Source of the DNA: Bacillus sp. FJAT-29790
Lineage (GTDB): Bacteria; Bacillota; Bacilli; Bacillales; Cytobacillaceae
Assembly: GCF_019039215.1 (NCBI RefSeq)
Contig: NZ_JAHNZZ010000001.1
Location: forward strand, 1,763,670-1,827,669
DNA length: 64,000 nt
Reading direction: 5' to 3'
Position 1 is the first letter of the stretch. Every line of letters begins with the position of its first letter. Both the position numbers and the translations under genes were made by a program. This document shows positions 2,217 through 63,161 of this stretch, piece by piece. Under the pieces are notes generated by a model. It searched no databases, was not told the origin of the DNA, and was given only the letters and a program-made list of their open reading frames with translations.

Positions 2217-2428
2217 GGCTGTTTTCGTAAACTTTGTTGCTATTTAATCAACTAGAAGTGTAGTGGATTTCCGTCTCAGGATGCTTAGCGAACCAAGGGG
2301 CGGGCGGTGAGCATCCTCAAGCTTTAAGCCTGTGGTGTCTCACCAGTCTCGCAGGAGTCTCGCACCTTCCGCTCCAATCAACTTCAGTCAAAACCTATTT
2401 AAAAACAACAATCATTTAGAAAACAGCC
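2217..2428. mobile_element. MITE copy, subfamily B, with perfect 8-bp target duplication
   Basis: Begins GGCTGTTTTCG and ends TTTAGAAAACAGCC, the inverted terminal repeats of the family. It is flanked on both sides by TTATTTTT (2209-2216 and 2429-2436), a perfect 8-bp direct repeat. The interior (GATTTCCG ... GGATGCT ... GAGCATCC ... CTCCAATCAAC) is subfamily B, shared with the copies at 24304 and 45634. There is no coding capacity. It fills most of the 450-bp gap between the CMD-like gene and the YugN-like gene. Confidence 0.88.
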
Positions 2429-2501
2429 TTATTTTTTATGTATCTTTACCCATTTTTTTGAAAATAATAGTATTAAATATTCTTATTAGAGGTGAATTAT
2501 T

Positions 2502-2930
2502 ATGATCAAATTAAACTCAGTAATTAAAGGAAAAAGGGCCCATTTTGGTATTGTTCGAAAGATGTTTCTGTCCCATGGGTGTAGTTTTTGCAGTAATTTT
2601 GAATATGATCAAGGTAAATTTGATGCAGTTTTATGGAGGGAAGGTGGGGAAACCATCTATTTAAGAATCCCTTTTAACGTTTTGGATGGGGCCTTGGATC
2701 ATTCTAATGCCTATATTGAGTTTGGAACACCTTATGTTATTAAACATGTTGTAAATACTGGTTTAGATTATGATGAAAACTCATTACTAACCGCTACTAC
2801 AGGACTTAGTCAATTTCAAGAGCCCTTGGATAAAGACGGATTTATAAGAGATAAAAGCAGATGGGAAAAAGCAGGTGAAGAAACGGTAGAACAAGTATTA
2901 AATTCCATGAATAATTTATTAAGCTCCTGA
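2502..2930 (+). CDS. YugN-like family protein
   Basis: A 142-residue soluble protein matching the YugN-like family of bacilli. The family landmarks are visible: a hydrophobic start, NFEYDQGKFDAVLW, YLRIPFNVLDGALD and GTPYVIKHVVNTGLDYD. Function is unknown. It has a good GAGGTGAATT ribosome site, its own terminator at 2963-3005, and no operon partner. The upstream promoter region lies close to the inserted MITE. Confidence 0.8.
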   Translation: MIKLNSVIKGKRAHFGIVRKMFLSHGCSFCSNFEYDQGKFDAVLWREGGETIYLRIPFNVLDGALDHSNAYIEFGTPYVIKHVVNTGLDYDENSLLTATTGLSQFQEPLDKDGFIRDKSRWEKAGEETVEQVLNSMNNLLSS

Positions 2931-2962
2931 TCTCACTGATTTTGCAATGAAACGAAAACATG

Positions 2963-3005
2963 AAAACGCTCGAATAATAAAATGTTTATTCAAGCGTTTT
3001 TAATT
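2963..3005 (+). terminator. terminator of the YugN-like gene
   Basis: AAACGCTCGAATAA pairs with TTATTCAAGCGTTT across a short loop, followed by TTTTAATTTT, 33 nt after the stop codon. Confidence 0.8.
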
Positions 3006-3122
3006 TTCAGATCCTCTCTTGCCAGCATCCACTAACGGATAACCCTTTTCCTATGTAGCAGTTCTTCGTCATTTCCCCCCAAGGAAATGCTAGATATTGA
3101 CTCCAAAAAGATATTTACCTAA

Positions 3123-3173
3123 TTATCCTGTAAAAAAAGAATTGAATGTATGTACTATGTTTTTTGCTTTCAT
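3123..3173 (-). other. possible 16-codon reading frame or gene remnant
   Basis: Twenty bases after the stress-protein stop, a strong ribosome site (AAAGGAGTGATTTATA) leads to an ATG that opens only 16 codons (MKAKNIVHTFNSFFTG). Past the stop, the same frame stays open for about nine more codons. It may be a truncated second gene of the operon rather than a functional peptide. Nothing recognisable is encoded. Confidence 0.3.
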
Positions 3174-3193
3174 TATAAATCACTCCTTTATTG

Positions 3194-3616
3194 TTAGAAA
3201 TAAAGCTCTTGTGGTGGTTCACCTTGATTGTTTAAAATACGGACAGTTTCAGGTTGGATTTGTAGAAATACATAGTTTGGATCTTCAGGACCATCGAACC
3301 ATTTGTTAAATGATTCATCCCAGAATTTCACTTTCAAATCTTGCGACTTATTAATTGTAGATGTTCCAGAAATTTCAACATAGGTATCGCTTTGCCCTTT
3401 TTCTTCATAACCTAACAGTACTGAAACGAATGGATTTTTTTCTATTTCAACTATTTTTTCAGTATCCATTTTCGTTGGTGAATACAATGTTAAGTCCTCA
3501 TTATAAAATGTCATATACCGTGAATGAGGCTTGTTATTTTCAACGGTTGAAAGGACGCCCATCCTATGATCAGAGATAATTTTCATAACTTGCTTTTTTA
3601 AATCTTGCTGGCTCAT
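3194..3616 (-). CDS. general stress protein 26-like flavin-binding protein (PPOX fold)
   Basis: A 140-residue protein of the pyridoxamine 5'-phosphate oxidase-like split-barrel family, close to B. subtilis YdaG (general stress protein 26). Characteristic stretches are MGVLSTVENNKPHSRYMTFY, LTLYSPTKMDTEKIVEIEKNP and YVEISGTSTI. It is likely an FMN- or F420-type cofactor binder with a stress role. The ATG has a strong AAAGGAGTG site. I looked for a sigma-B promoter (GTTTAA/GGGTAT) and found only the -35-like half. Confidence 0.85.
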   Translation of the reverse strand: MSQQDLKKQVMKIISDHRMGVLSTVENNKPHSRYMTFYNEDLTLYSPTKMDTEKIVEIEKNPFVSVLLGYEEKGQSDTYVEISGTSTINKSQDLKVKFWDESFNKWFDGPEDPNYVFLQIQPETVRILNNQGEPPQELYF

Positions 3617-3905
3617 TGATTTTCACTCCTTTACTATGTTACTGTGCCTCTTATTCTTGAAATTAAACCTTCCAGTTCTTTGTATTTTCTTGTAGGTGCG
3701 AGTCAAAAAAAACATATGTACAACTAAAGCAATGGTTAGTCTTTCCTTTTAGGCAGATAATAAAATAAATAAAATAGAGGAGTGACAACACAAAAAAGAA
3801 TAATTAACATCAGTTGAGATTGGTTTATGATGAGGTTTTGTTAAAGCTTTAAATCATGTAATTTTACTTTTCGGTAATACAAAACTGTATTTAGAAGGTG
3901 ATTTT

Positions 3906-4193
3906 TTGAAAATTTTGTTGGTCCTAACAAGTATAATATTCCCTTTAAGTATGTTCATCTTACAGAAATTCCGGGTGAAGTTTCGTTTTATTTTTAATAT
4001 TGGTGCAATCATCTCGATACTCATTTTTGGAAATATCGCTTCTCTATCTATTCTTGAAATTATTAATAATAGAACCGTATTTATGACAAATATCCATGCT
4101 CTTTTCTTAGACCCCATTTTCTTAACTACCGGAGCCTACTTAGGTGTATATATACTTTATCAATTATTGGTAGTCACTTTAGATCAAAAATAA
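3906..4193 (+). CDS. small membrane protein, unknown function
   Basis: A 95-residue hydrophobic protein with three likely membrane spans (about residues 2-19, 28-52 and 66-90). The start is TTG, placed 5-6 nt after AGAAGGTGA; no ATG lies in a better position. I do not recognise the family. It heads a run of three small membrane-protein genes in the same direction but is separated from the next by about 100 nt. Confidence 0.6.
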   Translation: MKILLVLTSIIFPLSMFILQKFRVKFRFIFNIGAIISILIFGNIASLSILEIINNRTVFMTNIHALFLDPIFLTTGAYLGVYILYQLLVVTLDQK

Positions 4194-4295
4194 AATGCTA
4201 CATTGAGCATTCATTACATATTTTTTTGGTATTAAACCAACATTAAATCCTAAAGATAAGAATGAATCTTAGCAACTAACGGGAGGGCTGTTTTT

Positions 4296-4472
4296 ATGGA
4301 GAACGTACGAGAAGGATTAATCCCCGCAGTACTCGGAACAGTAGTAACATCCACTGGGATCGCACTACGGAACAATAAAAACATTAAACCGTTGATCACA
4401 GGTTCGGTTATAGGCTTTGGATTGGCCCATGTTGTATTAGGGGCTATCGATTTAGTCGAACATCGTCGCTAA
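4296..4472 (+). CDS. 58-residue membrane protein, unknown function
   Basis: Opens with MENVREGLIPAV and has two hydrophobic segments (about residues 8-23 and 33-52) joined by a basic loop (RNNKNIK), ending in EHRR. A clear GGGAGGG ribosome site lies 6 nt before the ATG. The two-span hairpin layout and small size suggest an integral membrane peptide. I cannot name a family. It lies 77 nt upstream of the DUF378 gene and may share its transcript. Confidence 0.65.
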   Translation: MENVREGLIPAVLGTVVTSTGIALRNNKNIKPLITGSVIGFGLAHVVLGAIDLVEHRR

Positions 4473-4549
4473 AGATTCAGGTAGGAAGGATGTAGATCCT
4501 TCCTGTACATAGTTTCACAAAAAATTAAGGATAAAGGAGTGTTATACCC

Positions 4550-4888
4550 ATGAAAATCATAAATCGGATTGCCCTAGCTCTAACTATAATTGGTGCTATT
4601 AACTGGGGACTAATTGGTTTTTTTAAATTTGATTTAGTAGGAGCAATATTTGGTGGACAAGGTGCCTTTTTGTCAAGAGTGATTTTTGGTATTGTTGGGC
4701 TAAGTGGACTGGCTTGCGTAGCGCTTTTGTTTGAACCGATGAGAAATGTCGATCAAGACATTAATCGACAAAGCTTTGGAAAACCTAATTATGGCACTGA
4801 ATTTGGGGAAGAAACAGACGTATCAAATTTAAATAGACCTTCTAGACAAGTTTATGAACAAAACCAAAATCCTTCAGATAAGGAATAA
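4550..4888 (+). CDS. DUF378 family membrane protein (YuzA-like)
   Basis: Residues 1-65 are the DUF378 module: IINRIALALTIIGAINWG, then DLVGAIFGG and a second membrane span ending LLFEP. The product is 112 residues, longer than the roughly 80 of YuzA. The excess is a hydrophilic, Asn/Gln/Glu-rich tail (residues 66-112), predicted disordered. Function unknown. The ribosome site is AAAGGAGTG. A strong terminator follows. Confidence 0.85.
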   Translation: MKIINRIALALTIIGAINWGLIGFFKFDLVGAIFGGQGAFLSRVIFGIVGLSGLACVALLFEPMRNVDQDINRQSFGKPNYGTEFGEETDVSNLNRPSRQVYEQNQNPSDKE

Positions 4889-4898
4889 TAACCTGTTT

Positions 4899-4936
4899 TT
4901 TCAAAGCCATGCATTCAGCATGGCTTTGAAATTTCT
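4899..4936 (+). terminator. terminator after the DUF378 gene
   Basis: TTTCAAAGCCATGC pairs perfectly with GCATGGCTTTGAAA over a 5-nt loop, followed by TTTCTTCT. Confidence 0.85.
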
Positions 4937-5037
4937 TCTGAATCTAACAAGTATCTAATGCTCGACGGATAAGATTATTCGCTAGATTTACGTCCCCTTT
5001 AAGCAATGGAATAATACTTTAAATTACTATTGCTTCA

Positions 5038-5199
5038 TTAATTTCTTAAGCCATTCCAATAAAAGTCAACAATTTGTTTGGCCATCTCATCCATTAAGGG
5101 GAAAATAGGTTGTTGGTTTGCATCTTTATAATTTCCAACTGATAGCATAGCTACAAATGCATGAGTTCCTAATCTCCGATGTGTTACATTAGGTGAGGA
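5038..5199 (-). pseudogene. C-terminal remnant of a TetR-family regulator
   Basis: An open stretch of about 53 codons without a start ends in DEMAKQIVDFYWNGLRN and a stop, which resembles the C-terminus of TetR-type regulators. The DNA-binding N-terminal half, which would lie to the right, is absent: 13 nt further on begins the C-terminal piece of an MMPL transporter in the opposite direction. This is what a deletion across a divergent tetR/mmpL pair would leave. Confidence 0.6.
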
Positions 5200-5212
5200 T
5201 TATAATATTTTT

Positions 5213-5524
5213 ATGGTTTCGAAAATATGGAAGAATAAACGAACACAAAGTCATCTTAATGCTGTCGCCAACGGAGTGATTCAAACCGGAAGTGTGATTA
5301 CATCAGCAGGCCTAATCTTAGCAGGAACATTTGCTGTTTTAGCTACCCTACCAATTCAAGTGCTTGTTCAATTTGGTATTGTTACAGCAATAGGTGTGCT
5401 ACTAGATACATTTATCGTCCGTCCACTTCTGGTGCCCGCGATTACTACCGTTCTTGGTCGATTCGCTTTTTGGCCTGGTAAACTGTGGAAGAAGGACACC
5501 TTATCACAAAAATCAAATGCCTAA
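5213..5524 (+). pseudogene. C-terminal remnant of an MMPL/RND-type transporter
   Basis: The 103 residues match only the end of MMPL-family transporters (YdfJ-like, usually about 700 residues): SVITSAGLILAGTFAVLATLP, GIVTAIGVLLDTFIVRPLLVPA and the terminal GRFAFWPGKLW. Two or three C-terminal membrane spans remain. There is no ribosome site before the first ATG, and the roughly 600 N-terminal residues are missing. It abuts the TetR remnant and is followed by a terminator, which supports a decayed gene. Confidence 0.8.
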
Positions 5525-5557
5525 AATTACAAGGAATAAATCGATAGCACATAAATA

Positions 5558-5584
5558 CCGAGGATGGTAATCTATCCTCGGTTA
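5558..5584 (+). terminator. terminator of the former MMPL gene
   Basis: CCGAGGAT pairs with ATCCTCGG over an 8-nt loop, followed by TTAATTAATT. Confidence 0.65.
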
Positions 5585-5679
5585 ATTAATTAAATTACAA
5601 ACAAATAACACACTTTGATTTCTTTTTTTAGGTATACCGAAATTACAAATACCAAGATGAAAACTTTAATTATAACCTA

Positions 5680-6627
5680 TTACTTTTTTGTTTCTCCTTC
5701 TGGTCCTTGTGACACTTCTTCTTTTGTCTTTTTCGCTTTTGTTTCATAAGCAGCATCATCAGGTGCATCCTCATTTGGCCAGTCGTTTTCTTTGCCAGGG
5801 AAGTCCGGCCTATCGTGGGATAAAATATAAGCTGCAAGATCTGCTGCCTGCTGATCTGTCAATTCACCTTGCTTAATCCCACCAACTTCTCCTAATGGCA
5901 TATTCCGCTTTATATATCCCGCCGCTGTTCCCATACGTGCCATCCCAGCACCAATATTAAAAGAGTCTGCTCCCCAAAGAGCAGGACCAGTTGTGGCACC
6001 CGTACCCGCACCATTCTCCCCATGGCACGCCATACAAGATTGCTTGTAAAGCGCCTCGCCGTTTGCGATATTTGCTTCTGGCAGGTTTTCGATTAAATTT
6101 TTTGTGATCCAAGTCCTGTTTTATATTCTTGTTGGAACATCTTTTGAGATATATGAGAGATATGAAACCATTGCTCGCATCTCATCGCTGTTAATCGGAA
6201 GCGGCTTGCCGTTCAAACTCCGCCTCATACAGCCGTTGATCCTATCTTCAATGGTAACTACTCGCCCCCCCCCCCGAGCATTGTATTGCGGATATACTGC
6301 CGACACCCCAACAAAGCTTGAACTTAAATCTAGACCGGCATCTCCATGACAGCTTGAACATGAAAGTTGATTACCAACATAATCATTTAAAAGCACATGC
6401 GTATTGTTCATTAGTCCATAGCCTTGTTTAACCGATTTGCTAAATTGGTCGGTTTTGTCTTTTATACTTTCCATATCAGGAGGTTTAAATCCGATATTTT
6501 CTTCCTGTTTGTTTCCTTGGGCGTCTTTTGTCTCCATTTGTTTTCCATTCGTATTACAAGCTGCCAAAAAGGATAAGATGATAATAAACATAAAAGCAAA
6601 TAATTTCCACCTTCTCGTTAATCCCAT
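5680..6627 (-). pseudogene. TsdA-like diheme cytochrome c lipoprotein interrupted by one in-frame stop
   Basis: Starts with a lipoprotein signal (lipobox LAAC, Cys24). The first cytochrome domain has CSSCH, then INGCMRRSLNGKPLP and MRAMVSYLSY, typical of thiosulfate dehydrogenase/tetrathionate reductase TsdA. A TAA at 6121-6123 stops translation after 168 residues. The same frame then continues without a break through NLIENLPEANIANGEALY and the second heme motif CMACH at about 6029-6043, to a stop at 5680. A restored gene would encode about 315 residues. One C-to-T change (CAA to TAA) would explain it. An 11-C homopolymer (6265-6275) also lies inside the gene. Confidence 0.8.
6265..6275. repeat. 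11-bp C homopolymer inside the cytochrome gene
   Basis: A run of 11 C (G on the coding strand) encodes GGG within ARGGGRVVT. It is the longest C/G run I noticed in a low-GC window. Such tracts slip during replication and are also prone to sequencing error. Confidence 0.85.
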
Positions 6628-6717
6628 GGCAAAAAAAATTTACTTCTAATACAAATTCTTCATTCCCCTTACTAGACTTTTCTATATTTAAAATTTCCAT
6701 TGGTATATTTTCCCTGT

Positions 6718-7755
6718 CTAATTTTTAAGTAGTTCAACCTCTCCTATACCCTCAACAATTAATTTCAGCTTTTTAGCATTGTTATAAGAAGTGATCGGGA
6801 AGTTTGTTGAAATAATTGTTTCATTCTTTCTTTCACTCATATTAAAGCCCCCTGGACGATATTCATTGCCTTCTTCATCTATGATTTTCATTGTATGTGA
6901 GAATGGACTTTCATTCTCAAATAATTCACGCACGGAAAATGTTAGATTTAATGATGTTGGACTTGCCTTGGCGGAAGAAACTTGAATGACAGACAATGGA
7001 TCATCCATTGCATATTCAATGATTGAAATCGATTTGCTTATGTCCTGATTGGCTACCGGCAAATCCCATTTTCCATCGATTTTCTTGAATGCCTTCGTTT
7101 CGTAAAAAACATTGATACTTTCTATTTCTACTACAGCATCTTGTAAAAGAGGAATGTCCCCTTTATTGGAATCAACCACAACATCATATTGAGCAATCCC
7201 CATTTTTATATCTAATTTCGGATTTTCATCTATGAGGCCAGATATGTATCCACCGTTTCCTTTCAATGATTTTGTATCTGGAATAAATTCTACAATGTAT
7301 TCACCATCACCATTTTTCAGACGATAATCCATTGAAACTCGTATCACATCTTTCTTAAGGATCGTGCGGTCTTCAAATTCTAACTGAAAACTCATTCCCA
7401 ATTTATTTGCATCTGCAAAATGTCGTTTTAGTGTTACTTTTATATTCTGATCGGTAGCCGTGCTATTACTTTCTTGTGTGAACCCTTCCGTTACGGCACG
7501 TTCTATGCCTTGATCACCAAAGTTTAAGAAATCATTTATACTGGCGATGACATTTTGGTTAGTGAGGACAACACCAGTTACGATTAGTCCACAAGCAGGC
7601 ATAGCTACTCTCTTCCAAATAAAATTGTGTTTCTTCTTTTTCGATCGTGCTCGAACCATATCATATGATAGATCTAAAGATTGTCTTACTTTAGCAGGCA
7701 TCTCTTTCTTTTCATTCATAATCTGATCAAATTCTTTATCGAAGTTATTTTTCAT
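6718..7755 (-). CDS. DUF4179-type anti-sigma factor, pair 1
   Basis: Membrane protein of 345 residues: a cytoplasmic N-terminal helix region (1-45), one membrane span (about 48-66), and a large extracytoplasmic part beginning with the DUF4179 module (IKVTLKRHFADANKLGMSFQLEF). It overlaps the upstream ECF sigma gene by 11 nt, the standard sigma/anti-sigma arrangement. The ATG is preferred over an upstream TTG because GAGGGAGTG sits 7-8 nt before it. The role as membrane-bound anti-sigma is inferred from family and gene order; the signal sensed is unknown. Confidence 0.82.
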   Translation of the reverse strand: MKNNFDKEFDQIMNEKKEMPAKVRQSLDLSYDMVRARSKKKKHNFIWKRVAMPACGLIVTGVVLTNQNVIASINDFLNFGDQGIERAVTEGFTQESNSTATDQNIKVTLKRHFADANKLGMSFQLEFEDRTILKKDVIRVSMDYRLKNGDGEYIVEFIPDTKSLKGNGGYISGLIDENPKLDIKMGIAQYDVVVDSNKGDIPLLQDAVVEIESINVFYETKAFKKIDGKWDLPVANQDISKSISIIEYAMDDPLSVIQVSSAKASPTSLNLTFSVRELFENESPFSHTMKIIDEEGNEYRPGGFNMSERKNETIISTNFPITSYNNAKKLKLIVEGIGEVELLKN

Positions 7756-8275
7756 ATCCAATCACTCCCTCACTTTTGTAATAATTATTTCTTAATATCG
7801 ACTTGCCTCTGGAGAGTCTTGATTTAATCGTACCTTCTGGCTCCTTTAAAAATTTACTCATTTCCCTAATGTTCAATCCGACAATATAGTATAAGATGAA
7901 AGCTAATTTATAATCTTTATTTAAACTGTTTAGCGCATCCTCTAACTCTATATTTTGAAAATCATCTTTACTTTGTATTGGGAGTAAATACACATCAACC
8001 GTCGAATAATTCTTATTCTTGTTGAGTAAGCTGTTGCATTTATTAATTAATATTTTACAAATCCATGTGTTGAAGTACTCATCACTTTTCAAGGTATGTA
8101 ATTTTTCATAAGCTGAGATAATAGATTCCTGCATAACATCAGCCACATCTTCATCATTGTCTAATAATCTGCTAGCTGTCCTGTACAATACATCTTCATA
8201 TTGCTTTACGAGAGAAACAAAAGCTTCTCCATCTCCCTTTTTCGCCTTTTTGACCAAGGCTTTTAATGATCCCAT
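7745..8275 (-). CDS. ECF RNA polymerase sigma factor, pair 1
   Basis: A 176-residue group-4 sigma factor. Region 2 is residues 20-85 (LVKQYEDVLYRTASRLL, DVADVMQESIISAYEKL, FNTWICKILINKC). Region 4 is about 115-170 (DYKLAFILYYIVGLNIREMSKF, EGTIKSRLSRGKSILR). The ribosome site is GAGGAGGTG. It is coupled to the DUF4179 gene downstream, its presumed membrane inhibitor. Confidence 0.93.
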   Translation of the reverse strand: MGSLKALVKKAKKGDGEAFVSLVKQYEDVLYRTASRLLDNDEDVADVMQESIISAYEKLHTLKSDEYFNTWICKILINKCNSLLNKNKNYSTVDVYLLPIQSKDDFQNIELEDALNSLNKDYKLAFILYYIVGLNIREMSKFLKEPEGTIKSRLSRGKSILRNNYYKSEGVIGYEK

Positions 8276-8320
8276 TTAGACACCTCCTCGCTCGTTTTTT
8301 ATTTGTTTTTCAATAGATTA

Positions 8321-8347
8321 GATACGGGAAGATATCAATTAGTTGCA
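8321..8347 (-). promoter_or_regulatory. possible ECF-type promoter of sigma/anti-sigma pair 1
   Basis: On the minus strand TGCAAC (8342-8347) is followed after 15 nt by CGTATC (8321-8326), resembling the ECF pattern TGAAAC/CGTC. It is placed about 45 nt before the sigma start codon. Weak match. Confidence 0.35.
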
Positions 8348-8542
8348 TTATATTAAAATAATTGTCTAAATCTTTTAAGCTGGCCATTTCAAAAAGGAAT
8401 ATATTTTGTTTAGCGATCTTCCTTCAGATCTCTATGATAGACTAATTAAATTATCTTTTTATTGAAAATGTGAGAAAAAATCAAATTCGTTTCGTTTTAT
8501 AAGGTGTAAAAGCTTTTACAAAAAAATAAGGAGATCATTAAC

Positions 8543-10218: not shown

Positions 10219-10232
10219 CGGAATAGACTTAA

Positions 10233-10260: not shown

Positions 10261-10358
10261 TATGTATTTTATGACTAACCCTATTTAACTGATTATTGGA
10301 AAATTCACAATGGTAATTAATTTGTTCGAAAAAAAGAGTTAAAATTTTATTCTCCCTC

Positions 10359-10388: not shown

Positions 10389-10397
10389 CAACCCAAT

Positions 10398-22820: not shown

Positions 22821-23111
22821 AACGGTTTTCGTAAACTTTGTTGCATTTTAGTGTGATTTTATATAAATAAATCTGAGTTGATTGGAGCGGAGGGCGCTTG
22901 ACTCCTCGAAAATGCTATCGCATTTCCTTCGTGCGTGGGCAGATTCAAGGATGTAAATTCAATTTCCTACGGGAGATAGAGGGAACGGGAGACCCCACAG
23001 GCGGTAACGCCGAGGAGGCTCCCGTCCCTCCCCGCGGAAAGCAAGTGCCCGCAGCGGAAATCAACGGGCTAACTTTTTAAAGCCAAAACAACAAACTATG
23101 CGAAATGAGCC
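22821..23111 (+). mobile_element. MITE copy, subfamily A, full length, just upstream of sspL
   Basis: Runs from a slightly altered left end (CGGTTTTCGTAAACTTTG) to TATGCGAAATGAGCC. Flanks TAATGGAA (left) and AAATGGAA (right) agree at 7 of 8 bases. The interior is about 85% alike by eye to the copy at 62870, including GACTCCTCGAAAATGCTATC and ACCCCACAGGCGGTAACGCC. Frames inside it are open only by chance. It ends 32 nt before the sspL ATG. Confidence 0.88.
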
Positions 23112-24303: not shown

Positions 24304-24450
24304 AGAGGAGTGGTTGATTTCCGCTCCAGGATGCTCGCTTTCCGCAGTACGGGCGGTGAGCATCCTCGGCGCTTTGACCTGTGGGGTCTCACCTGTCCCG
24401 TTGCTCCCGAAGGAGTCTCACACCTTCCGCTTCAATCAACTTCTTTATCG
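24304..24450. mobile_element. MITE remnant, subfamily B, termini lost
   Basis: The interior of subfamily B is present: GGTTGATTTCCGCTCC, AGGATGCTCGC, CGGGCGGTGAGCATCC, CTGTGGGGTCTCACC, GAAGGAGTCTCACACC and CGCTTCAATCAACTTC. Neither GGCTGTTTTCG end is found on either side and no target duplication is visible. It lies between ypcP and the sulfurtransferase gene. Confidence 0.75.
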
Positions 24451-29583: not shown

Positions 29584-29760
29584 GGCTATTTTCGCATATA
29601 TTGTTGTTTTAGCCTAAAAAGTTTGCCCGCTGATTTCCGCTGCGGACAATTGCTTTCCTCGAGGAGGTATGGGAGCCTCCTCGGCGTTACCGCCTGCGGG
29701 GTCTTCCGCTCCAATCAACTCAGATTATTAAATAAAAATCACATTATTAAAGCAACAGCC
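29584..29760 (-). mobile_element. MITE copy, subfamily A, internally deleted, with perfect 8-bp target duplication
   Basis: Ends GGCTATTTTCG (left) and GCAACAGCC (right), flanked by TTTTCAAT on both sides (29576-29583 and 29761-29768). The interior lacks about 100 bp present in the 22821 copy but keeps TGATTTCCGCTGCGG, GAGCCTCCTCGGCGTTACCG and CCAATCAACTCAG. It is inserted directly against the -35 of the Fur-box promoter and 25 nt from the ypbQ stop. Confidence 0.9.
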
Positions 29761-38036: not shown

Positions 38037-38264
38037 GGCTGTGTTCGGATATATTTGTTGTTATTGCCTATAAAGTTTGCCCGTTGATTTCCGCTGCGGG
38101 CACTTGCTTTCCGCGGGGAGGGACGGAAGCCTCCTCGGCTTACCGCCTGTGGGGTCTCCCGCTTCCCTCTATTCCCGCAGGAGTCAAGCGCCCTCCGCTC
38201 CAATCAACTCAGATTATTAAATAAAAATCACATTATAAAAGCAACAAACTTTATAAAAACGGCC
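38037..38264 (-). mobile_element. MITE copy, subfamily A, with perfect 8-bp target duplication
   Basis: Left end GGCTGTGTTCG, right end TATAAAAACGGCC, flanked by AAATCTTA on both sides (38029-38036 and 38265-38272). The right-hand duplicate overlaps the stop codon of the DUF2249 gene (38270-38272). The interior includes CGTTGATTTCCGCTGCGGGC and the matching arm GCGCCCTCCGCTCCAATCAA, which give a long imperfect stem. Confidence 0.92.
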
Positions 38265-45633: not shown

Positions 45634-45746
45634 GTCTGTTTTCGTTAACTTTGTTGCTATTTAACCAAAAAGAGGTGTAGTTGATTTCCGCTCCAATCAA
45701 CTTAAACAAAACTTTTTTAAAAACAACAATCATTTAGAAAACAGCC
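45634..45746. mobile_element. MITE copy, subfamily B, internally deleted, with perfect 8-bp target duplication
   Basis: Ends GTCTGTTTTCG and TTTAGAAAACAGCC, flanked by TAATTAAA on both sides (45626-45633 and 45747-45754). Only 113 bp remain: both termini as in the 2217 copy, joined through GTTGATTTCCGCTCCAATCA, with the central GGATGCT block missing. Same subfamily as 2217 and 24304. Confidence 0.92.
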
Positions 45747-52963: not shown

Positions 52964-53002
52964 ATTATCCCTCCGTCCAAAGAATTAAGCGTCTTTATTA
53001 AA

Positions 53003-53055
53003 TACTGTTTTCGCATATATAGTTGTTTTAGCCTACAAAGTTTGCGAAAACAGCC
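53003..53055. mobile_element. minimal MITE: two termini only
   Basis: Fifty-three bases: TACTGTTTTCGCATATATAG ... GTTTGCGAAAACAGCC. Left and right ends of the family are joined with no interior. Flanks TTATTAAA and TTATTAAT agree at 7 of 8 bases. Outside the element AAGCGTCT (52988-52995) and AGACGCTT (53065-53072) form a further inverted repeat followed by ATTTTATATTT, so the element lies in the loop of what looks like a terminator hairpin. Confidence 0.8.
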
Positions 53056-53219
53056 TTATTAATAGACGCTTATTTTATATTTGTATCATTATCTCATTAT
53101 TTCTTCATTAATAAACAAAAGACCACCAATCATTTTATCGTATAATCTGATCGTGTTCAAGTAAGAAGGTATTTTTCGAATGATAAACTAAGAAATTCGT
53201 TTCTGTGTTCCATCCCCGC

Positions 53220-56873: not shown

Positions 56874-56949
56874 TAAACAACCTCCATTGATGCCTAAAGC
56901 TATGTAGTAATTCTTACTTTATAATAAATGTATTTTATCAATAGTACAA

Positions 56950-56976
56950 GAAAAGCTCTCCTACAAAGGAGAGCTA
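56950..56976 (-). terminator. terminator of rnpB
   Basis: On the minus strand AGCTCTCC pairs with GGAGAGCT over a 6-nt loop, followed by TTTCTTGT, 20 nt after the RNase P RNA 3' end. Confidence 0.82.
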
Positions 56977-56995
56977 CACTAGTCTTTAATAAATC

Positions 56996-57412
56996 TCACT
57001 AATAACGTTCTGTAAGCCATGTTTTGTGCCTTCGTACTGCAAGCGACCAAAGTCTCGTACTTAGGTGGTAATCATCTATCTACAGGTTATATAACCTGTC
57101 CTTCTCGTTGTTGAGTTCCTAAGAGAAAGTGCCCCTACCATTATTTGGGTTTCTCGCTCGTGGGGTTTACCTCGTTCCACCCTTTTCATTTCTGAAAAGG
57201 CTCCGTCACTGTGGCACTTTCAAGGTATTCATGCCATATCCAAAAGGACTTAGGCATTTTCCCTGCCGTCAGCCAAGCAAACGCCTAACTGCCCTAGCTT
57301 ATGAATTGGCTAGGCACGAACACTACAGGCATCTCAGCCCGTGCGAGCATGGACTTTCCTCTACAATGATTAAGAATCATCGCAGCGATTACCCGAACGC
57401 TATTAATGATTA
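56996..57412 (-). ncRNA. rnpB: RNase P RNA, Bacillus (type B) form
   Basis: Catalytic RNA of the tRNA 5'-processing enzyme. On the minus strand, conserved parts occur in order: GTTCGGGTAATCGCTGC (P1/P2 start), GAGGAAAGTCCATGCTCGCA (CR-I), TAGTGTTCGTGCCTAGC, GCCACAGTGACGGAG, GAAACCCAAATAATGG, and at the end TACGAGACTTTGGTCGCTTG and GGCTTACAGAACGTTATTAG closing P1. About 415 nt, normal for type B. Ends are estimated from P1 pairing. Position between ypsC and gpsB as in B. subtilis. Confidence 0.95.
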
Positions 57413-57420
57413 CAAAGATT

Positions 57421-57449
57421 ATTATATGTAACTTTGAAACGAATATCAA
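57421..57449 (-). promoter_or_regulatory. sigma-A promoter of rnpB
   Basis: On the minus strand TTGATA (57444-57449), 17 nt, TATAAT (57421-57426), placing the start near 57412. Confidence 0.85.
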
Positions 57450-57481
57450 TTGTTTTCGACAAGAAATTGAGAGATAATCTG

Positions 57482-57784
57482 TTAATCGTACAATTTACTG
57501 CCAAAAACATGCTTTTCTAAATTAGAAAGCCGTTTTAATATATCGAAATTCGTTGTCCCGGCTGTCTGTGTTGTTGCTGGACGTTTTGAAGCATCTTCAA
57601 GCTGTTTCTTTAATTTCATATTTTCCAGCTGCAGTTCTTCAATTTCTTGATGGAACGTCTCATAATCTTTAATAATCCAATCTAAAAATTTGTCCACTTC
57701 TTCCGGTTTGTACCCACGCATAGCTGTTTTAAATTCTTTTTCCAAAATATCTTTTGCCGTTAATTTCACTTTATCGGATAGCAT
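57482..57784 (-). CDS. gpsB: cell-division regulator GpsB
   Basis: A 100-residue DivIVA-domain protein: [38 protein letters not shown], a coiled coil to about residue 70, a variable linker, and the C-terminal domain [20 protein letters not shown]. It shuttles the bifunctional penicillin-binding protein PBP1 between lateral wall and septum. ATG 57784 follows GAGGTG; a GTG nine bases upstream lies within that ribosome site and is rejected. Confidence 0.95.
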
Positions 57785-57871
57785 TACACTCACCTCAGTA
57801 TATCACCAATCATCACTTCTATTTTTTCAAAGATAGTCATGTTTGTCAATTTTTCTTTCATACTATTTTTT

Positions 57872-58435
57872 TCACATATCTTGGTCTTTCATATGCTCTT
57901 CTTCAACTAAGACTTGCAAATCATAAAAATCGATAGTGTAAATTTTATAATCGTGCTTTTCCTGATGTCTTTTCGCCGTCTCATAAAGGTATTTCGGACT
58001 TCCCTCTTTTTCAGAATCATAAAATAAAAGAAGAACATCACTTTTTTCGACAAAAAACTGATTCTTTAAACGAAACTGCCACGGATTTTCGTATGGCTTG
58101 CGGGAGACGGAGTCGATAAAATCTGCCTGGGCAAGAATGGAGTCATACCATTCCTTATTTGCTTCTTTCCAAGATTCTTCTTGATTCAAGAAGGGGGTAA
58201 TCACCCCAAGCTGTAGCTCATGATAACCTTCCAGCTGCAATTCAAAGACCACTTCTGCTGCCCATAACTCTGTTCCAAGCTGTCCGCTGATGATGACCCA
58301 TTCAAGGCCCTCTTCTAATAAGGAAACAAGATTATTTCTTAAAGCTGCTTTAATATAATGTACTGCCGGATCGTCATTCTTAAAGATGCCAACCTCAAAT
58401 GGTTTATATCCGGAAATAATCGCTATTCTAGCCAA
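57872..58435 (-). CDS. ypsA: YpsA, SLOG-superfamily (DUF1273) protein
   Basis: A 187-residue Rossmann-like SLOG protein: [34 protein letters not shown] and [20 protein letters not shown]. YpsA influences cell division together with GpsB, beside which it is always found in bacilli. It probably binds a nucleotide or NAD-like ligand. The start is TTG; only AAGGA lies very close to it, so the ribosome site is poor and a slightly different start is possible. Confidence 0.92.
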
Positions 58436-58536
58436 TCCTTAAACCCCTTATCGTTTATGTCCTCAAAAGAAATTTTCTCTTAAGCAGACGGAAGAGTCAA
58501 ACTTTATTTCCTGCTTAACAATCTTGAACATAATAA

Positions 58537-58560
58537 GACAAGGGCAATCATGCCCTTGTC
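58537..58560 (-). terminator. terminator of cotD
   Basis: GACAAGGGCA pairs perfectly with TGCCCTTGTC over a 4-nt loop, followed on the minus strand by TTATTATG. Confidence 0.78.
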
Positions 58561-58591
58561 AGCTTCTTTATTCACCGAAAAATAGCACTTC

Positions 58592-58894
58592 TTAGTAAAA
58601 GCCCGGTCTTGGAACGCCGTATGGTCCCACAGGCCCGCCAAATCCTCCTGGTCCAGGTACACCAAACCCTGCATGTGTTGGTGCAGCAACAAACTGTTGG
58701 TTTGTCACCTCATTAACAAAAGATTCAGTGTGCGGGAAGAAATGCTCGTGTTGAAAATTAATGTGGTTTACATTTGTTGTGTGAGTCGGATGAATATGTG
58801 GAACCACATTATTTTGGAAAGTGTTGTTTACACAACATTGCGTCGGATGAACAATTGGTGGTAAAATACATGATGGTCTTGGTCCGCAATACAT
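58592..58894 (-). CDS. cotD: spore coat protein CotD
   Basis: One hundred residues, rich in His, Pro, Asn and Gly with few charged residues: MYCGPRPSCILPPIVHPTQC, HPTHTTNVNHINFQHEHFFP and a Gly/Pro tail. This composition and the CotD core (VHPTQCCVNN) identify an inner spore coat protein. AGAAAGGGGA precedes the ATG. A sigma-K-like promoter lies 40 nt upstream, consistent with late mother-cell expression. Confidence 0.92.
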   Translation of the reverse strand: MYCGPRPSCILPPIVHPTQCCVNNTFQNNVVPHIHPTHTTNVNHINFQHEHFFPHTESFVNEVTNQQFVAAPTHAGFGVPGPGGFGGPVGPYGVPRPGFY

Positions 58895-58933
58895 TTGAAG
58901 ATCCCCTTTCTACAAAGTTTTATTTACACTAAC

Positions 58934-58961
58934 AACCTATGTTGAAGGGGATAATCTTGTA
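58934..58961 (-). promoter_or_regulatory. candidate sigma-K promoter of cotD
   Basis: On the minus strand TAC (58959-58961), 17 nt, CATAGGTT (58934-58941), matching AC-N16/17-CATANNNT. Confidence 0.55.
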
Positions 58962-58992
58962 CTAATGCAAATACCTAATTTAAACCTATTTT

Positions 58993-59088
58993 TTAAAACA
59001 TATTATAAAAACTGTCTCTTAAGTTTGAAAAAATAACAGCTGTAAATAAAACAACGAAAAAAAACAGAAATAAAATTGCTTTGTACAT
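58993..59088 (-). CDS. 31-residue hydrophobic peptide, unknown function
   Basis: ATG with GTGAGG 6-7 nt upstream encodes MYKAILFLFFFVVLFTAVIF followed by SNLRDSFYNMF: one membrane span and a short polar tail. It fills the first part of the 350-bp gap between cotD and mrfB; the rest (59089-59243) shows nothing. Small single-span peptides are common in bacilli, but with no relatives known to me the call is tentative. Confidence 0.45.
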   Translation of the reverse strand: MYKAILFLFFFVVLFTAVIFSNLRDSFYNMF

Positions 59089-59243
59089 GTCGTTAGCCTC
59101 ACTATATTATTGTAAATTAAACACCACACAAGTATTTATTTTACAACTTTCTAAATGTACAGACAACTAGAAAATAGTGGATTTTCAACTTAAAATCGTA
59201 AACTTTTGTTACATTTCACTTTTTTTGATTAATTTGATGCAAA

Positions 59244-60500
59244 TTAATCGATTTTTTTCAAAAGCCTTTGAATTCTTTTTTCAATTTCTTCTTGGCTCAC
59301 TTTTATTTTTTCACATTTCTTCGTCAATGCTTCTTTATAAAATACCTTTGCCTTTTCACTATAAAGAATCGCTTTCTTTAAGTCCTTTTCTCTATGTTCA
59401 TAGATTTTGGCCAGTTCAATGCAGGCGGCTAGCTTTAATTCATGATGTCCCTTTTCGGTTACAGCCTCCCATAATCGAGCCGCCTCCATCCAGTTTTTTT
59501 GCTTTTTGTATTCGAATGCAAGTGCATGCTTTGCATCAATTGCTTCCCGTTCGTTTCCATTTGATATGTGCGCAAATGCTGATTGAGCTGCCGATGTTTC
59601 CCCCAATTGAGAAAACCATCTGCCTACTTCATAAACTTCCCGTCCTGTTTGCTTGCGATCGAGTCCAAGTAGTTGAAAAGAAAGATGCGTATACAAACTG
59701 ATAAGCGATAAAATATCATTTTCATTATGTTCTAGAATGCCAAGCATCCCGTGCGGATCTTTTCTTTCAACAAAGTCAAAATAGATCATCGGGGCTAAGT
59801 AACCTGGGATATCATCTTTCCGTTCGATTCCTAATACTTCTTTCTCCACGACTGATAGCTTCGTCCGTTCTAATTTATGCTTCCACATTCTTCTCGCAGC
59901 ATGATACAAATCAAAATGGCCAAAAGAGGGAAGCTTCGGCAAATGCTCTCGAATCAGCGTGTGCCGCGTTTTTACTTGTGGCCAATCGAATGATTTCCCA
60001 TTATATGTAACCATTGTTGTATAGTTGACACTTTCTAAAAAACTTTTGTATAAAGGTACTTCTGCCCCGGGATTTGGAAGAATATGCTGTTTTAACTTTA
60101 TCTTATTTTCTGTCAGGCTAGCATGTCCAAGGATGAAAATCGAGTTGCCAACCCCACCACCTAACCCGGTTGTTTCTGTGTCAAAGAAAAAGAGATTTTC
60201 CGGTTGATGCCCCGCGGCAGAAAGAGGATGATTGACCTCTGAAGAATGCCAAGCGTCCACAGCAGCGGAAAACTCGGCAAAGGAGTAAATTCCATGTTTT
60301 TGCTGAAGCGAAAATTCCCTCTCCCTTACAAGGCAGTAGCTTCCATCAAAGAAAAAGGGATGAACCCCCTCACTCTCCCATGTTTCTCTGAAGGGGATTT
60401 CCTCGATTTCTACGGAAGGAATACTGATGAGTTCAGTCTTATTACTGCTTTCATGTGAAAGATGTGATTTTAACCGGTTCAGCTTGTTTTTAATGGACAT
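59244..60500 (-). CDS. mrfB: exonuclease MrfB (YprB)
   Basis: A 418-residue protein: a DEDDh-type RNase H-like exonuclease domain (about 100-270) with FFDTETTGLGGGVGNSIF, MVTYNGKSFDWPQVKTRH and EHNENDILSL, then a C-terminal TPR-like helical region. In B. subtilis MrfA and MrfB repair mitomycin C lesions independently of UvrABC; MrfB is the nuclease. ATG 60500 follows GAAGGTGAT and overlaps the mrfA stop by 11 nt. Confidence 0.92.
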   Translation of the reverse strand: MSIKNKLNRLKSHLSHESSNKTELISIPSVEIEEIPFRETWESEGVHPFFFDGSYCLVREREFSLQQKHGIYSFAEFSAAVDAWHSSEVNHPLSAAGHQPENLFFFDTETTGLGGGVGNSIFILGHASLTENKIKLKQHILPNPGAEVPLYKSFLESVNYTTMVTYNGKSFDWPQVKTRHTLIREHLPKLPSFGHFDLYHAARRMWKHKLERTKLSVVEKEVLGIERKDDIPGYLAPMIYFDFVERKDPHGMLGILEHNENDILSLISLYTHLSFQLLGLDRKQTGREVYEVGRWFSQLGETSAAQSAFAHISNGNEREAIDAKHALAFEYKKQKNWMEAARLWEAVTEKGHHELKLAACIELAKIYEHREKDLKKAILYSEKAKVFYKEALTKKCEKIKVSQEEIEKRIQRLLKKID

Positions 60501-62790
60501 AGAAATCACCTTCGTTGACTTTCACCGAAGTGAAATTTGCAAATATGGTCAATACATCCTTTTTTGCTGTTCCAGAAGAAGTATCCGTACCAATGCATGA
60601 TGGACATCCGCCCTCACATTGACACCGATACACCATCTCCCTTGCCTCTTTCAGAACATGCTCGATGCCACCATAAATTTTTTCACTTAATCCGATCCCG
60701 CCTGGATAACGGTCATAAAAGAAAATCGTTGGTTTTTCATTATGAGCAGCTTTCACTTGGGGAACGACATGGATATCCTGAGGATCACACATGACAAATA
60801 GCGGGGCAATATGTCTTAATGCATGCGCCGTCCCAATAAGCGCTTGTTCAAGGCGGTCTTGATTATTTTGTAAAAGCTCCTCTTTGACTGAAATCCAAGT
60901 TGAACTCGTATGAAGTTCAGCTTCTGGCAGTGATATCGGACCTGATCCAATATTTTCGTGCGTCTCAAATTTTATTTTCTTAAAAATAGTTGCCATCGCC
61001 CTCACACTTACGTCTCCATAGCCAATTTCACCTAAAGCTGTAACCCGATGCTTATCCTGTTCAAGCACTTTCAGCTGGACGGCAAGATTCGCGTCTGTGA
61101 AATAGTCAACATCCACTTCCCTGACAAACGCCTTTTTCTCTTCCCAGTCAAGCAATTCCACTTGATATTGAGTCCCTTGATGAAGATAGATCGCTTCTTC
61201 ATGTAAAAGAGTCATTGCCGAAAATCGGTCCATTTCTCCGATTACTCTTACATTCGCGACATCAGATTGGTCGATAATGACGACATTTTCTTGTGATGCC
61301 GAGCGGAGACTGATATTATGGGCTGGAAAAGAGTCGTTCATCCAATAGAACTTTTCACCATTTTGATGGAGCACTCTTTCTTCTGCTAAATATTCTAGCA
61401 CTTCTTCCGTTTCAAACTGGCCAAAGTTTTCCCCGGCATTGAATGGAAGCTCGTATGCGGCACATTTAATATGATCAATTAATATGATCAGGTTATCAGG
61501 ATTAATCCTTGCTGTTTCTGGACTTTTGTTAAAGAAATAGTCCGGATTTTGGATCACAAATTGATCAAGGGGACTGGAGCTTGCGACCATAATAACGAGG
61601 GACTCACTATGCCGGCGGCCGGCACGTCCCGCCTGCTGCCAGGAACTTGCAATCGTCCCCGGATAACCTGTCATGATGCACACTTGCAGCTGCCCGATAT
61701 CGACCCCTAATTCCAGCGCATTTGTACTGACTACACCATAAATATCCCCTGAGCGGAGACCTTTCTCAATCTCCCGCCTTTCTGTAGGCAAATAACCTCC
61801 TCGATAGCCACGTATCGCTTTCGGCCCTAATTTATGCTTGATTAATTCTTGTAAATACGTCAGCAAGATTTCCACTCTAACCCTGCTTCTTGCAAACACA
61901 ATAGTCTGAATTTTATTTTTCAAAAGTTCCCCAGCAAGCCTTCTTACTTCTAAGGTCGCACTTCTCCTAATATTTAGCGGCTTATTCACAATTGGTGGAT
62001 TATAGAATACAAAATGCTTTCTGCCGCTAGGTGCGCCATTATTATCGATGAGCGCGACGGTTTTTTCGGTTAGTTTTTCTGCAAGTTCTAACGGATTAGC
62101 GATCGTTGCAGAAGTACAGATAAAAATCGGATCGCTGCCATAAAAACGGCAAATTCGCCGTAAGCGTCGAATCACATTTGCCACATGACTTCCGAAAACC
62201 CCTCTATAAATATGAAGTTCGTCAATTACTACATACTTCAGGTTTTCGAATAAGGAAACCCATTTTGTATGATGTGGCAAAATGGCCGAGTGCAGCATAT
62301 CTGGATTCGTTATTACAACATGGCCCGCTCTCCGGACTTTCTGGCGAATGTTAGAGGGCGTGTCCCCATCATAAGTATAGCTATTTATATTTAACCCCGA
62401 TTCCTCGATAATCTCATTGATTTCACTTTTCTGGTCTTGTGCCAACGCTTTTGTCGGGAACATATATAGAGCACGGGCCTTCGGATCATTAATGATTGTC
62501 TGCAAAACAGGGAGATTATAACATAACGTCTTCCCCGAAGCTGTTGGTGTGACAGCAACAAGGCTTTTCCCGCTCATAGCTGTCTTAAATGCCGTTTTTT
62601 GATGGGTAAATAATCTTGTAATCCCCCGCTTTTGTAAGGCTTCTTTAAGGGCCTGGTGTATGTTTGAAGGGAGATCAGCTGTTTTAGCTTCCTTTTCCTC
62701 GATTGTATGCCAATGAACTACATTCTCTTTAAATTGATCTGTCATTTTTAATTCTTTCATTAATTCGTGCAAGCTTTTACGTACTTTCAT
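60490..62790 (-). CDS. mrfA: DEAD/DEAH-box helicase MrfA (YprA)
   Basis: A 766-residue superfamily 2 helicase: Walker A VTPTASGKT, DELH box VVIDELHIYRG, motif III CTSATIANP, motif VI QQAGRAGRR, and a C-terminal MrfA zinc domain with the four-cysteine set in YRCQCEGGCPSCIG. 3'-5' DNA translocase that acts with MrfB in mitomycin adduct excision. ATG 62790 follows GGGGTGA; the GTG three codons upstream is rejected because it lies in the ribosome site. Confidence 0.94.
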   Translation of the reverse strand: MKVRKSLHELMKELKMTDQFKENVVHWHTIEEKEAKTADLPSNIHQALKEALQKRGITRLFTHQKTAFKTAMSGKSLVAVTPTASGKTLCYNLPVLQTIINDPKARALYMFPTKALAQDQKSEINEIIEESGLNINSYTYDGDTPSNIRQKVRRAGHVVITNPDMLHSAILPHHTKWVSLFENLKYVVIDELHIYRGVFGSHVANVIRRLRRICRFYGSDPIFICTSATIANPLELAEKLTEKTVALIDNNGAPSGRKHFVFYNPPIVNKPLNIRRSATLEVRRLAGELLKNKIQTIVFARSRVRVEILLTYLQELIKHKLGPKAIRGYRGGYLPTERREIEKGLRSGDIYGVVSTNALELGVDIGQLQVCIMTGYPGTIASSWQQAGRAGRRHSESLVIMVASSSPLDQFVIQNPDYFFNKSPETARINPDNLIILIDHIKCAAYELPFNAGENFGQFETEEVLEYLAEERVLHQNGEKFYWMNDSFPAHNISLRSASQENVVIIDQSDVANVRVIGEMDRFSAMTLLHEEAIYLHQGTQYQVELLDWEEKKAFVREVDVDYFTDANLAVQLKVLEQDKHRVTALGEIGYGDVSVRAMATIFKKIKFETHENIGSGPISLPEAELHTSSTWISVKEELLQNNQDRLEQALIGTAHALRHIAPLFVMCDPQDIHVVPQVKAAHNEKPTIFFYDRYPGGIGLSEKIYGGIEHVLKEAREMVYRCQCEGGCPSCIGTDTSSGTAKKDVLTIFANFTSVKVNEGDFYVH

Positions 62791-62869
62791 CTTATTCACC
62801 CCATAATACTATTCTAGCGAATAAGCGTTCGTTTACAACAGATAATTTCTTCATTTTATAGTTAGGAAT

Positions 62870-63161
62870 GGCTGTTTTCGTAAACTTTGTTGCTTTTTTA
62901 GTATGATTTTATATAACAATCTGAGTTGATTGGAGCGGAGGGCACTTGACTCCTCGAAAATGCTATCGCATTTTCTTCGTGCGTGGGCAAATTCAAGGAT
63001 GTAAATTCAATGTCCTGCGGGAAATAGAAGGAAACCGGGAGACCCCACAGGCGGTAACGCCGAGGAGGCCCCCGTCCCTCCCCGCGGAAAGCAAGTGCCC
63101 GCAGCGGAAATCAACAGGCAAACTTTGAAGGCTAAAAACAACAATATATGCGAAAAGAGCC
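62870..63161 (+). mobile_element. MITE copy, subfamily A, full length
   Basis: From GGCTGTTTTCGTAAACTTTG to ATATGCGAAAAGAGCC, 292 bp, flanked by TTAGGAAT (left) and TTAGGAAA (right), 7 of 8 alike. The best-preserved copy in the window. The subterminal arms (TTGATTGGAGCGGAGGGCAC and GTGCCCGCAGCGGAAATCAA) are themselves inverted. It separates mrfA from the divergent Crp/Fnr gene at 63320. Confidence 0.92.

Follow-up and report, generated by a model that had tools for sequence, protein, structure and literature searches.

The MITEs dispersed through a 64,000-nucleotide stretch of Bacillus sp. FJAT-29790 DNA (hereafter the window) were very probably spread by a clade-1 transposase of the IS1595 family that now escapes detection, and the folded core that many of them share with other MITEs has most likely switched transposition ends. 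Directly observed are the ends, the target duplications, one empty site, the matching of end types to transposase clades, and the sharing of and covariation within the core. According to the explanation that we favor, the clade-1 transposase would have acted in trans on type-1 MITEs, duplicating 8 bp of AT-rich target, and would since have been lost, leaving it undetectable in this genome. Many type-1 copies bear a GC-rich core with conserved structure, and elsewhere in the order the same core is borne by type-2 MITEs, whose ends correspond to a second clade of IS1595 transposases. Retention of the core may be due to its fold, which would make copies easier to mobilise or to tolerate.

A MITE Family With 8-bp Target Duplications

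When at most one mismatch is allowed, the window contains 10 occurrences of the terminal motif GGCTGTTTTCG, compared with a mean of 1.17 in shuffled sequences, none of 100 shuffles reaching 10. By recomputed coordinates the copies span 53–292 bp (Table 1), and no ORF of at least 150 aa overlaps any of them. A preliminary description of this DNA had listed nine copies or fragments with shared ends, among them deletion forms, and had recognized two interiors, A and B, with the same termini. The deletion forms were borne out, down to 53 bp, and the copy at position 1 stands as a partial one, but the feature at 24304 is core only, with no recognisable end. The shared termini of A and B likewise held, but the core alignment showed that the two forms share the core and not the termini alone, being homologous forms of one core rather than separate interiors.

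Table 1. MITE copies and related features in the window.
Feature	Position	Strand	Target duplication	Remarks
Form-A MITE end	1..98	-		Part of a 287-bp element starting outside the window
Form-B MITE	2217..2428	+	TTATTTTT, 8/8	
Form-A MITE	22821..23111	+	7/8	
Core without recognisable terminal repeats	24313..24440	+		Feature noted earlier at 24304
Form-A MITE, internal deletion	29584..29760	+	TTTTCAAT, 8/8	
Form-A MITE without extra insert	38037..38264	+	AAATCTTA, 8/8	Empty site in eight congeners
Form-B MITE, internal deletion	45634..45746	+	TAATTAAA, 8/8	
53-bp deletion form	53003..53055	+	7/8	~40 bp upstream of the start (52963) of a 641-aa ORF
Full form-A MITE, 292 bp	62870..63161	+	7/8	Its core on the - strand

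The 8-bp direct repeats reported at the seven two-ended copies were recovered when the flanking octamers were recomputed (four at 8/8, three at 7/8), and when flanks were swapped among these copies 1 of 42 pairs reached at least 7/8. Both ends were present in 50 of 60 copies sampled from the whole genome. Flanks agreed at 8/8 in 18 of these 50 and at 7/8 or better in 29, compared with 0.45% and 2.4% of swapped flanks, and flank identity peaked at a length of 8 only. Matches to the type-1 (T1) end number 449 in this genome (control, 0). The orthologous site of the MITE at 38037..38264 is empty in eight congeners at 69–73% identity, which supports insertion at one site, as seen in congeners at ~70% identity and not in the sister strains that had been proposed for this comparison. 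The repeats are confirmed as a genuine MITE family whose insertions duplicate 8 bp of target.

IS1595-Family Elements Carry the MITE Ends

Both MITE-type ends were found at 19 of 27 IS1595-family loci, with perfect 8-bp repeats in 16, and the duplications at these elements are 8 bp long and AT-rich; L274, an apparent further two-ended element that is one base out of register, was left out of the 19. IS1595 domains were confirmed in the transposases with cognate ends. The clade-1 ends of IS1595 insertion sequences (PF12762, NF033547) match the MITE ends at up to 25/25 bp, one MITE end being identical over that length to the right ends of L270, L272, and L290. Compared with these insertion sequences, the MITEs lack a transposase, and their ends resemble the right end of the element, not the left. 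By eye, the IS1595 left end holds a promoter-like TTGACC..TATAAT. The ends, the 8-bp duplications, the short and multicopy form without a transposase gene, and the one empty site all agree with derivation from IS1595 elements, to which the MITEs can be assigned on sequence grounds.

Two types of end are each tied to one transposase clade. Type-1 ends (GGCTGTTTTCGTA..TTGTTGCT) are borne by clade-1 IS1595 elements, and type-2 (T2) ends (GGCTNTGTTAAA..TGTTGAT) were found on clade-2 elements at 8 of the 30 loci examined. A transposase tree of 20 chosen loci contains two clades, one per end type, with 100/100 for each.

One Core Between Two End Types

The core pattern occurs in 67 of 101 genomes, with at least five matches in 58, and was not found in phage records. 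From genome to genome the core is not bound to one end type, being present in genomes nearly without T2 and in others nearly without T1. Among 127 distinct core loci, 16 have T1 at both ends, 18 have T2 at both, and none is mixed. Another 59, among them every one of the 15 typed copies from genome G075, showed no end of either type at the threshold applied, and no duplications at a fixed offset were found around the cores of G075 and G034. The second core motif is absent from its expected place in 29 of the 127 loci, so some cores are truncated or altered, and L147 appears to match by chance. L220, the sole T2 copy among those sampled from this genome, lacks a recognisable duplication (4/8). 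Since the same core lies between two IS1595 end types, it has most probably switched transposition ends on more than one occasion.

Structure of the Core

The preliminary description had suspected a structured interior, and the core is indeed a GC-rich imperfect hairpin of ~120–132 bp with strong compensatory changes. A set of 110 cores (104 distinct) was reduced to 99 by dropping five that aligned poorly (L028, L210, two in L166, and L031, the copy that starts at 2217 in the window), and 58 of the 99 were kept in alignment A1 after near-copies were thinned. In this alignment, where mean column identity is 78%, 96.4% of the cells are paired and 82 are double changes, compared with 18.3 in shuffles (0 of 500 reach that number), the structure having been derived from the same sequences on which covariation was counted. 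RNAalifold gave the same alignment only -15.05 kcal/mol, with a covariation share of -1.42.

Evidence for the strand on which the core would fold is mixed. Two core pairs stay U.G in 54 and 53 of the 58 cores, and since U.G pairs are mismatches on the opposite strand, they give a weak hint in favor of the strand shown. G.U cells outnumber A.C cells by 70 to 25, a count that omits the second kept U.G pair (53/58); a single kept pair accounts for 54 of the 70, and without the kept pairs the numbers are 16 vs. 25.

Alternative Explanations

An ISL3-like mobiliser had been proposed in the preliminary description, which had also reported that no transposase lies in the window. The absence was upheld, neither an ISL3 nor an IS1595 transposase being detected when the genome was searched as well (ISL3 by domain search), and the mobiliser was not. 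ISL3 elements do have GG-type ends and 8-bp duplications, as the MITEs have, and the ISL3 domain is present in 13 of 41 genomes (our own and 40 relatives). However, when 30 of the 38 ISL3 matches, all from relatives, were examined for ends, just three loci (two overlapping) had a bracketing end pair, with two mismatches on each side, and these match the MITE end at only 12–14 of 25 bp and have no 8-bp duplication. No ISL3 transposase bounded by MITE ends was thus present among these 30 matches. Given also that the MITE-type ends sit on IS1595 elements and that the own genome is without ISL3, mobilisation by an ISL3-family transposase is exceedingly improbable. A different objection concerns the switching of ends: T1 and T2 ends could have diverged from one ancestral MITE alongside their transposases, with the core as an inherited interior. 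The two ends are distantly alike (GGCT..GTT..TGTTG), and the inner edge of the T2 end is also where the core has its boundary, GTTGAT. Against this, the transposases of the two types are ~36–43% identical, compared with the 78% column identity of the cores from our own and other genomes, and T1 and T2 both occur around the core in one genome (L220 vs. the rest). The end label, moreover, changes four times on the core tree, at least two changes being forced, in a tree with few columns and many weak forks (own-genome T1 rows were randomly thinned from 70 to 26; in another core tree own-genome rows were thinned to 24). With the core also kept where one or the other end type is nearly lacking, such co-divergence seems unlikely.

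Other doubts concern what maintains the fold. Perfecting of inverted repeats can yield paired changes without selection, and template switching at replication forks, with correction of a quasi-palindrome, could have produced the compensatory changes. The lack of a G.U excess over A.C once the two kept pairs are removed would fit. However, mismatch loops beside well-kept stems (TCC-GC-TCC, both arms) are kept in most copies across genera; correction should erase such loops, and their persistence counts against this origin of the changes, which we consider rather doubtful. The main role of the core could instead be to terminate the transcription of adjacent genes or to stabilise their mRNA, as the very stable folding of the whole 62870 element (z = -5.25 and -5.90, one per strand) and the kept U.G pairs might suggest. 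Yet convergent gaps are not enriched: of 60 copies, 43 lie in tandem, 11 in divergent, and 6 in convergent gaps, compared with 24, 9, and 5 among 38 background intergenic gaps in the window. Nor are distances to 3′ ends strikingly short (median 67 bp, vs. 97 bp to 5′ ends), orientations and distances both coming from a crude ORF caller, and a main role of this kind is improbable. An apparent orientation bias of the copies was disregarded as probably artefactual, since the minus-strand match in the window itself is absent from the matches concerned. Returning to selection on the fold, we suggest tentatively, as a possibility that we would not call probable, that the core behaves as an independent selfish module, under selection for a fold that it takes up as RNA, single-stranded DNA, or a cruciform. 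It would spread through the Bacillales by repeated packaging between the ends of available IS1595-type transposases, and perhaps amplify free of such ends in some hosts (G075).

Relationship to Known Elements

The closest parallel is an ISHwa6-related, IS1595-derived MITE of Haloquadratum walsbyi (165 bp, 7 copies, IR 25, DR 8; PMC3852290), which resembles ours in its IS1595 assignment, its ~25-bp ends, and its 8-bp duplications. It differs in having 7 copies, compared with hundreds here, and its table entry mentions neither a structured core nor two end types (PMC3852290). Interspersed stem-loop repeats are known in Bacillus: Bhal-1 and Bhal-2 of Bacillus halodurans are described as 74–76 bp long with 36–50 copies, Bhal-2 being noted to contain CRISPR repeats, and bcr1 of the Bacillus cereus group, likewise a small intergenic repeat, is listed at 147–167 bp and 12–31 copies (PMC2267715). 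REP/BIME sequences are short GTAG- or CGTC-tagged palindromes moved by RAYT, without TIR and TSD (in part PMC3733652); the TIRs and 8-bp TSDs of the MITEs exclude this identity. Open-access literature on MITEs, ISL3, IS1595, and Bacillus stem-loops, searched also with core strings, yielded no description of the element, nor do the passages considered from PMC2267715, PMC3852290, PMC9208149, and PMC1590033 describe it; a review of prokaryotic MITEs contains neither the word IS1595 nor the word Bacillus (PMC10969869). No structured RNA family of Rfam 15 reached its gathering score with the core: at that score the window contains RNase P only, and six core loci searched at E ≤0.5 returned tsr24 alone (21.7 bits vs. 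a cut-off of 50).

The usual view of bacterial MITEs is that each is what deletion has left of a single insertion sequence. In the present case the ends of two transposase clades enclose the same folded core, which is kept with paired changes in many genera. The transposase assignment is corrected from ISL3 to IS1595, and the 25-bp end signatures could be used for annotating intergenic repeats across the order. Why some short non-autonomous elements attain copy numbers in the hundreds also becomes testable, namely whether internal structure improves an element as a substrate or makes the host more tolerant of it.

MITE Copies in the Window and in the Genome

At one mismatch or fewer, the inverted-end sequence GGCTGTTTTCG matched 10 times in the window, well beyond chance, as 1.17 matches were expected and 0/100 shuffles reached 10. 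The genome of Bacillus sp. FJAT-29790 (the own genome; 4.55 Mb, nine contigs) held 449 matches to a 25-bp end pattern, an intact element counting as two ends, and 242 to an interior pattern, with 0 control matches for each. The preliminary description had reported 8-bp flanking repeats on all seven two-ended window copies (four perfect, three at 7/8) and deletion forms down to 53 bp; both reports hold, the ends and duplications still being present on internally deleted copies. The feature at 24304 does belong to the family by its interior, but it lacks recognisable ends. Similarly, the two interior forms A and B exist, but not as separate interiors that share only termini, since both are versions of one GC-rich core of ~120-132 bp. 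Runs of N occur within two own-genome copies (L217, L222), as either assembly gaps or withheld bases.

Among 60 genomic copies fetched, both ends were present in 50, and in these flank identity was 0.81 at length 8 versus 0.39-0.55 at every other length between 2 and 12. The repeats were perfect in 18/50 and at least 7/8 in 29/50, compared with 0.45% and 2.4% for swapped flanks, so the proposed 8-bp target duplication extends to the genomic copies at far above the swapped-flank rate. The duplicated octamer is AT-rich, with T the commonest first base and A the commonest last base. For an empty site, the flanks of one window copy (38037) were joined with one octamer and queried against 51 relatives and the own genome. 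A single match ran through the junction at 69-73% identity in eight congeners (G013, G045, G044, G042, G009, G012, G002, and G046), whose alignment shows no element there; both flanks matched in G041, about 0.8 kb apart, and most other genomes matched one flank only. The restored octamer is too diverged to be read at every base, and the empty orthologous site is therefore one in related species, not in the sister strains originally envisaged.

Locations of features in the window and in two IS1595 loci of relatives
Feature	Position	Strand	Remark
Window in own genome	C1:1763670-1827669		
MITE copy at window start	1		extends beyond the window edge
Core interior of the feature at 24304	24313-24440		
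MITE copy used in the empty-site search	38037-38264		
Palindrome AAGCGTC..GACGCTT (by eye)	52985-53075		contains the 53-bp deletion copy; just upstream of a 641-aa ORF
RNase P class B RNA gene, bacterial	57008-57400	minus	
IS1595 element with type-1 ends, L095	985-2826		also present in L269
Second ORF of the L095 element	2189-2716		GNAT-acetyltransferase matches, all under curated cut-offs
L092	988-2670		145-aa ORF without family match; lipoprotein-like start (by eye)

IS1595 Transposases and Two End Types

An ISL3-like element had been proposed as mobiliser. ISL3 (PF01610) was detected in 13/41 genomes (40 relatives and the own genome, the latter without a match), and in 30 fetched ISL3 loci a bracketing end pair at 2 mismatches per side was seen in three (L066 and L077, which overlap, and L083). 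These pairs matched 12-14 of 25 bp with flanking identity of at most 5/8 and look like chance. On the 30 loci fetched, out of 38 ISL3 matches, we reject ISL3 as the mobiliser; it is IS1595 elements of relatives that bear ends of the MITE kind. A scan of genome contigs with the transposase of one such element (L095) gave 27 loci, 19 of them with both type-1 ends and a duplication of 8/8 (16 loci), 7/8 (two), or 6/8 (one). The remaining eight show no clear end pair; several are incomplete or lie close to the end of a contig, and L274 is probably a two-ended element read out of register. The MITE end GGCTGTTTTCGTAAACTTTGTTGCT, present in the copies at 2217 and 62870, agrees at all 25 bp with IS1595 right ends in L270, L272, and L290, and Pfam and NCBIfam models assign three proteins to the IS1595-family transposases. 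Searches of the own genome for a transposase detected neither ISL3 nor IS1595 (PF12762), and the IS1595 transposase query, matched in 59/101 genomes, had no match there.

When 30 IS1595 loci were searched for ends with a duplication of at least 7/8, six had type-1 ends, eight had ends of a second type, and 16 had no pair. Type-2 ends read GGCTNTGTTAAA..TGTTGAT (variant CGCTGTGTTAG in L126), and duplications are perfect in all eight such loci (L114, L116, L118, L119, L120, L126, L134, and L137). Type-2 transposases are 36-43% identical to that of L095, the IS1595 domain is also found in the two type-2 proteins tested, and in a tree of 20 selected transposases (14 type-1, six type-2) the end types separate with 100/100 support.

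A Core Shared Between End Types

GTTGATT and AATCAAC mark the boundaries of the core, whose left pattern occurs in 67/101 genomes (own plus 100 relatives; two control matches in total), with at least five matches in 58 and at least 10 in 50; the pattern derives from the own genome, so diverged cores elsewhere may escape it. In a class sample of 200 genomes, own included, 38 had a match, many single matches probably being chance, and outside the order counts of at least four were confined to four genomes, all of family f44. Seventeen plasmid records (Priestia, Peribacillus, Bacillus, Paenibacillus, Niallia, Cytobacillus, and Sporosarcina) carry core matches, 8/17 spanning at least 80% of the query; none was found in phage records. 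In G077, a relative, the core is split at seven loci (L172, L176, L177, L180, L183, L185, and L187) by a repeated module, TTTCACCC-AAGGGCACAAG..GTGTCTTCTTTGC, present twice in tandem in L187 as a repeat within a repeat.

Ends were typed at 130 loci (127 distinct, three having been fetched twice) with a threshold that 1.3% of random stretches pass on a single side. Two recognisable ends were present in 34/127 (16 T1/T1, 18 T2/T2, none mixed), one in 34, and neither in 59. Duplications in the two-ended copies were perfect in 8/18 T2 and 5/16 T1, and at least 7/8 in 10/18 and 8/16. Of 20 own-genome copies sampled, 18 had at least one type-1 end, one had no end of either type, and one (L220) had type-2 ends without a recognisable duplication (4/8). 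Although core counts correlate with both end counts over 101 genomes (Spearman 0.51 for T1, 0.54 for T2), core and end types dissociate across genomes and are separable. Core/T1/T2 counts are 65/44/0 in G007, and 90/1/110 and 98/3/84 in G077 and G069; core matches are absent in G090 (0/736/6), G088 (0/231/0), G084 (0/313/1), and G086 (0/3/106). In G090, G088, and G084, the type-1 ends probably enclose different interiors, in MITE families of large size. In a tree of 53 cores (34 T1, 19 T2), built on a short alignment with many weak forks and an unsettled bootstrap, the end label requires four changes, at least two of them forced by starred branches; a tree also retaining end-less cores requires 19 over three labels.

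In the relative G075, mean similarity between cores is 88% (14 rows, comparing pairs of like length), against 49% for the adjoining 20+20 bp. No GG-type end or duplication was found at them, and flanks of the dispersed cores (L229-L243, L145) hold a weak TAATGGGGCT / AGGNTTTTAAA-like consensus. They may be type-2 copies that have decayed except for a conserved core, or may have spread by another route.

Structure of the Core

The structured interior suspected from the sequence was borne out by the folding of window copies, which is much stronger than that of shuffled sequence (copy at 62870, z -5.25 on one strand and -5.90 on the other; copy at 2217, z -3.64) and to which terminal repeats contribute, and by paired changes among 58 cores. 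A structure of 29 pairs, derived from the predicted pairing of the same 58 cores on which it was counted, is formed in 96.4% of cells, with changes on both sides in 13 pairs. Double-change cells numbered 82 versus 18.3 in shuffles (0/500 as high), dropping to 3-19 when the partner was slid by 1-3 columns. On the same alignment RNAalifold gave 25 pairs, 11 with double changes, at a modest -15.05 kcal/mol; 99 cores with gap-rich columns removed and ribosum scoring gave -84.5.

Paired changes could also result from palindrome correction by template switching, which we keep as a rival. However, the mismatch loops TCC-GC-TCC, adjoining the outer stem on both arms, are retained in most copies, which argues against simple correction; the GC pairs between the TCC loops covary. 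Exceptions to pairing comprise 70 G.U and 25 A.C, 54 of the 70 being one pair kept as U.G, without which the counts are 16 and 25; a second pair, outside the 70, is kept as U.G in 53/58 cores. These two U.G pairs are a weak indication for the strand shown, which the remaining exceptions do not favour.

Mechanism and Meaning

Most likely, a clade-1 IS1595 transposase (the clade that goes with type-1 ends) binds the 25-bp MITE ends in trans and inserts the MITEs into AT-rich octamers, duplicating 8 bp; its source would be gone from the own genome, or was missed. Gene context did not clearly point to a regulatory role, the 60 copies being tandem (43), divergent (11), or convergent (6), near the window background. 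MITEs derived from IS1595 are a kind already known, and that derivation is common to the present family and the one described in PMC3852290. No description of an element such as this one was found in the open-access literature, subscription papers and ISfinder lying outside the scope of the search. What sets this family apart is that one covarying core is shared between two end types. Spread in itself does not require the core, given that type-1 ends occur in hundreds without the core pattern in G090. Highly successful families with either end type nevertheless have it as their interior, and we prefer the reading that its fold improves the element as a substrate or helps the host to tolerate it. 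At its boldest, our interpretation would make the core a unit that itself persists and changes ends.
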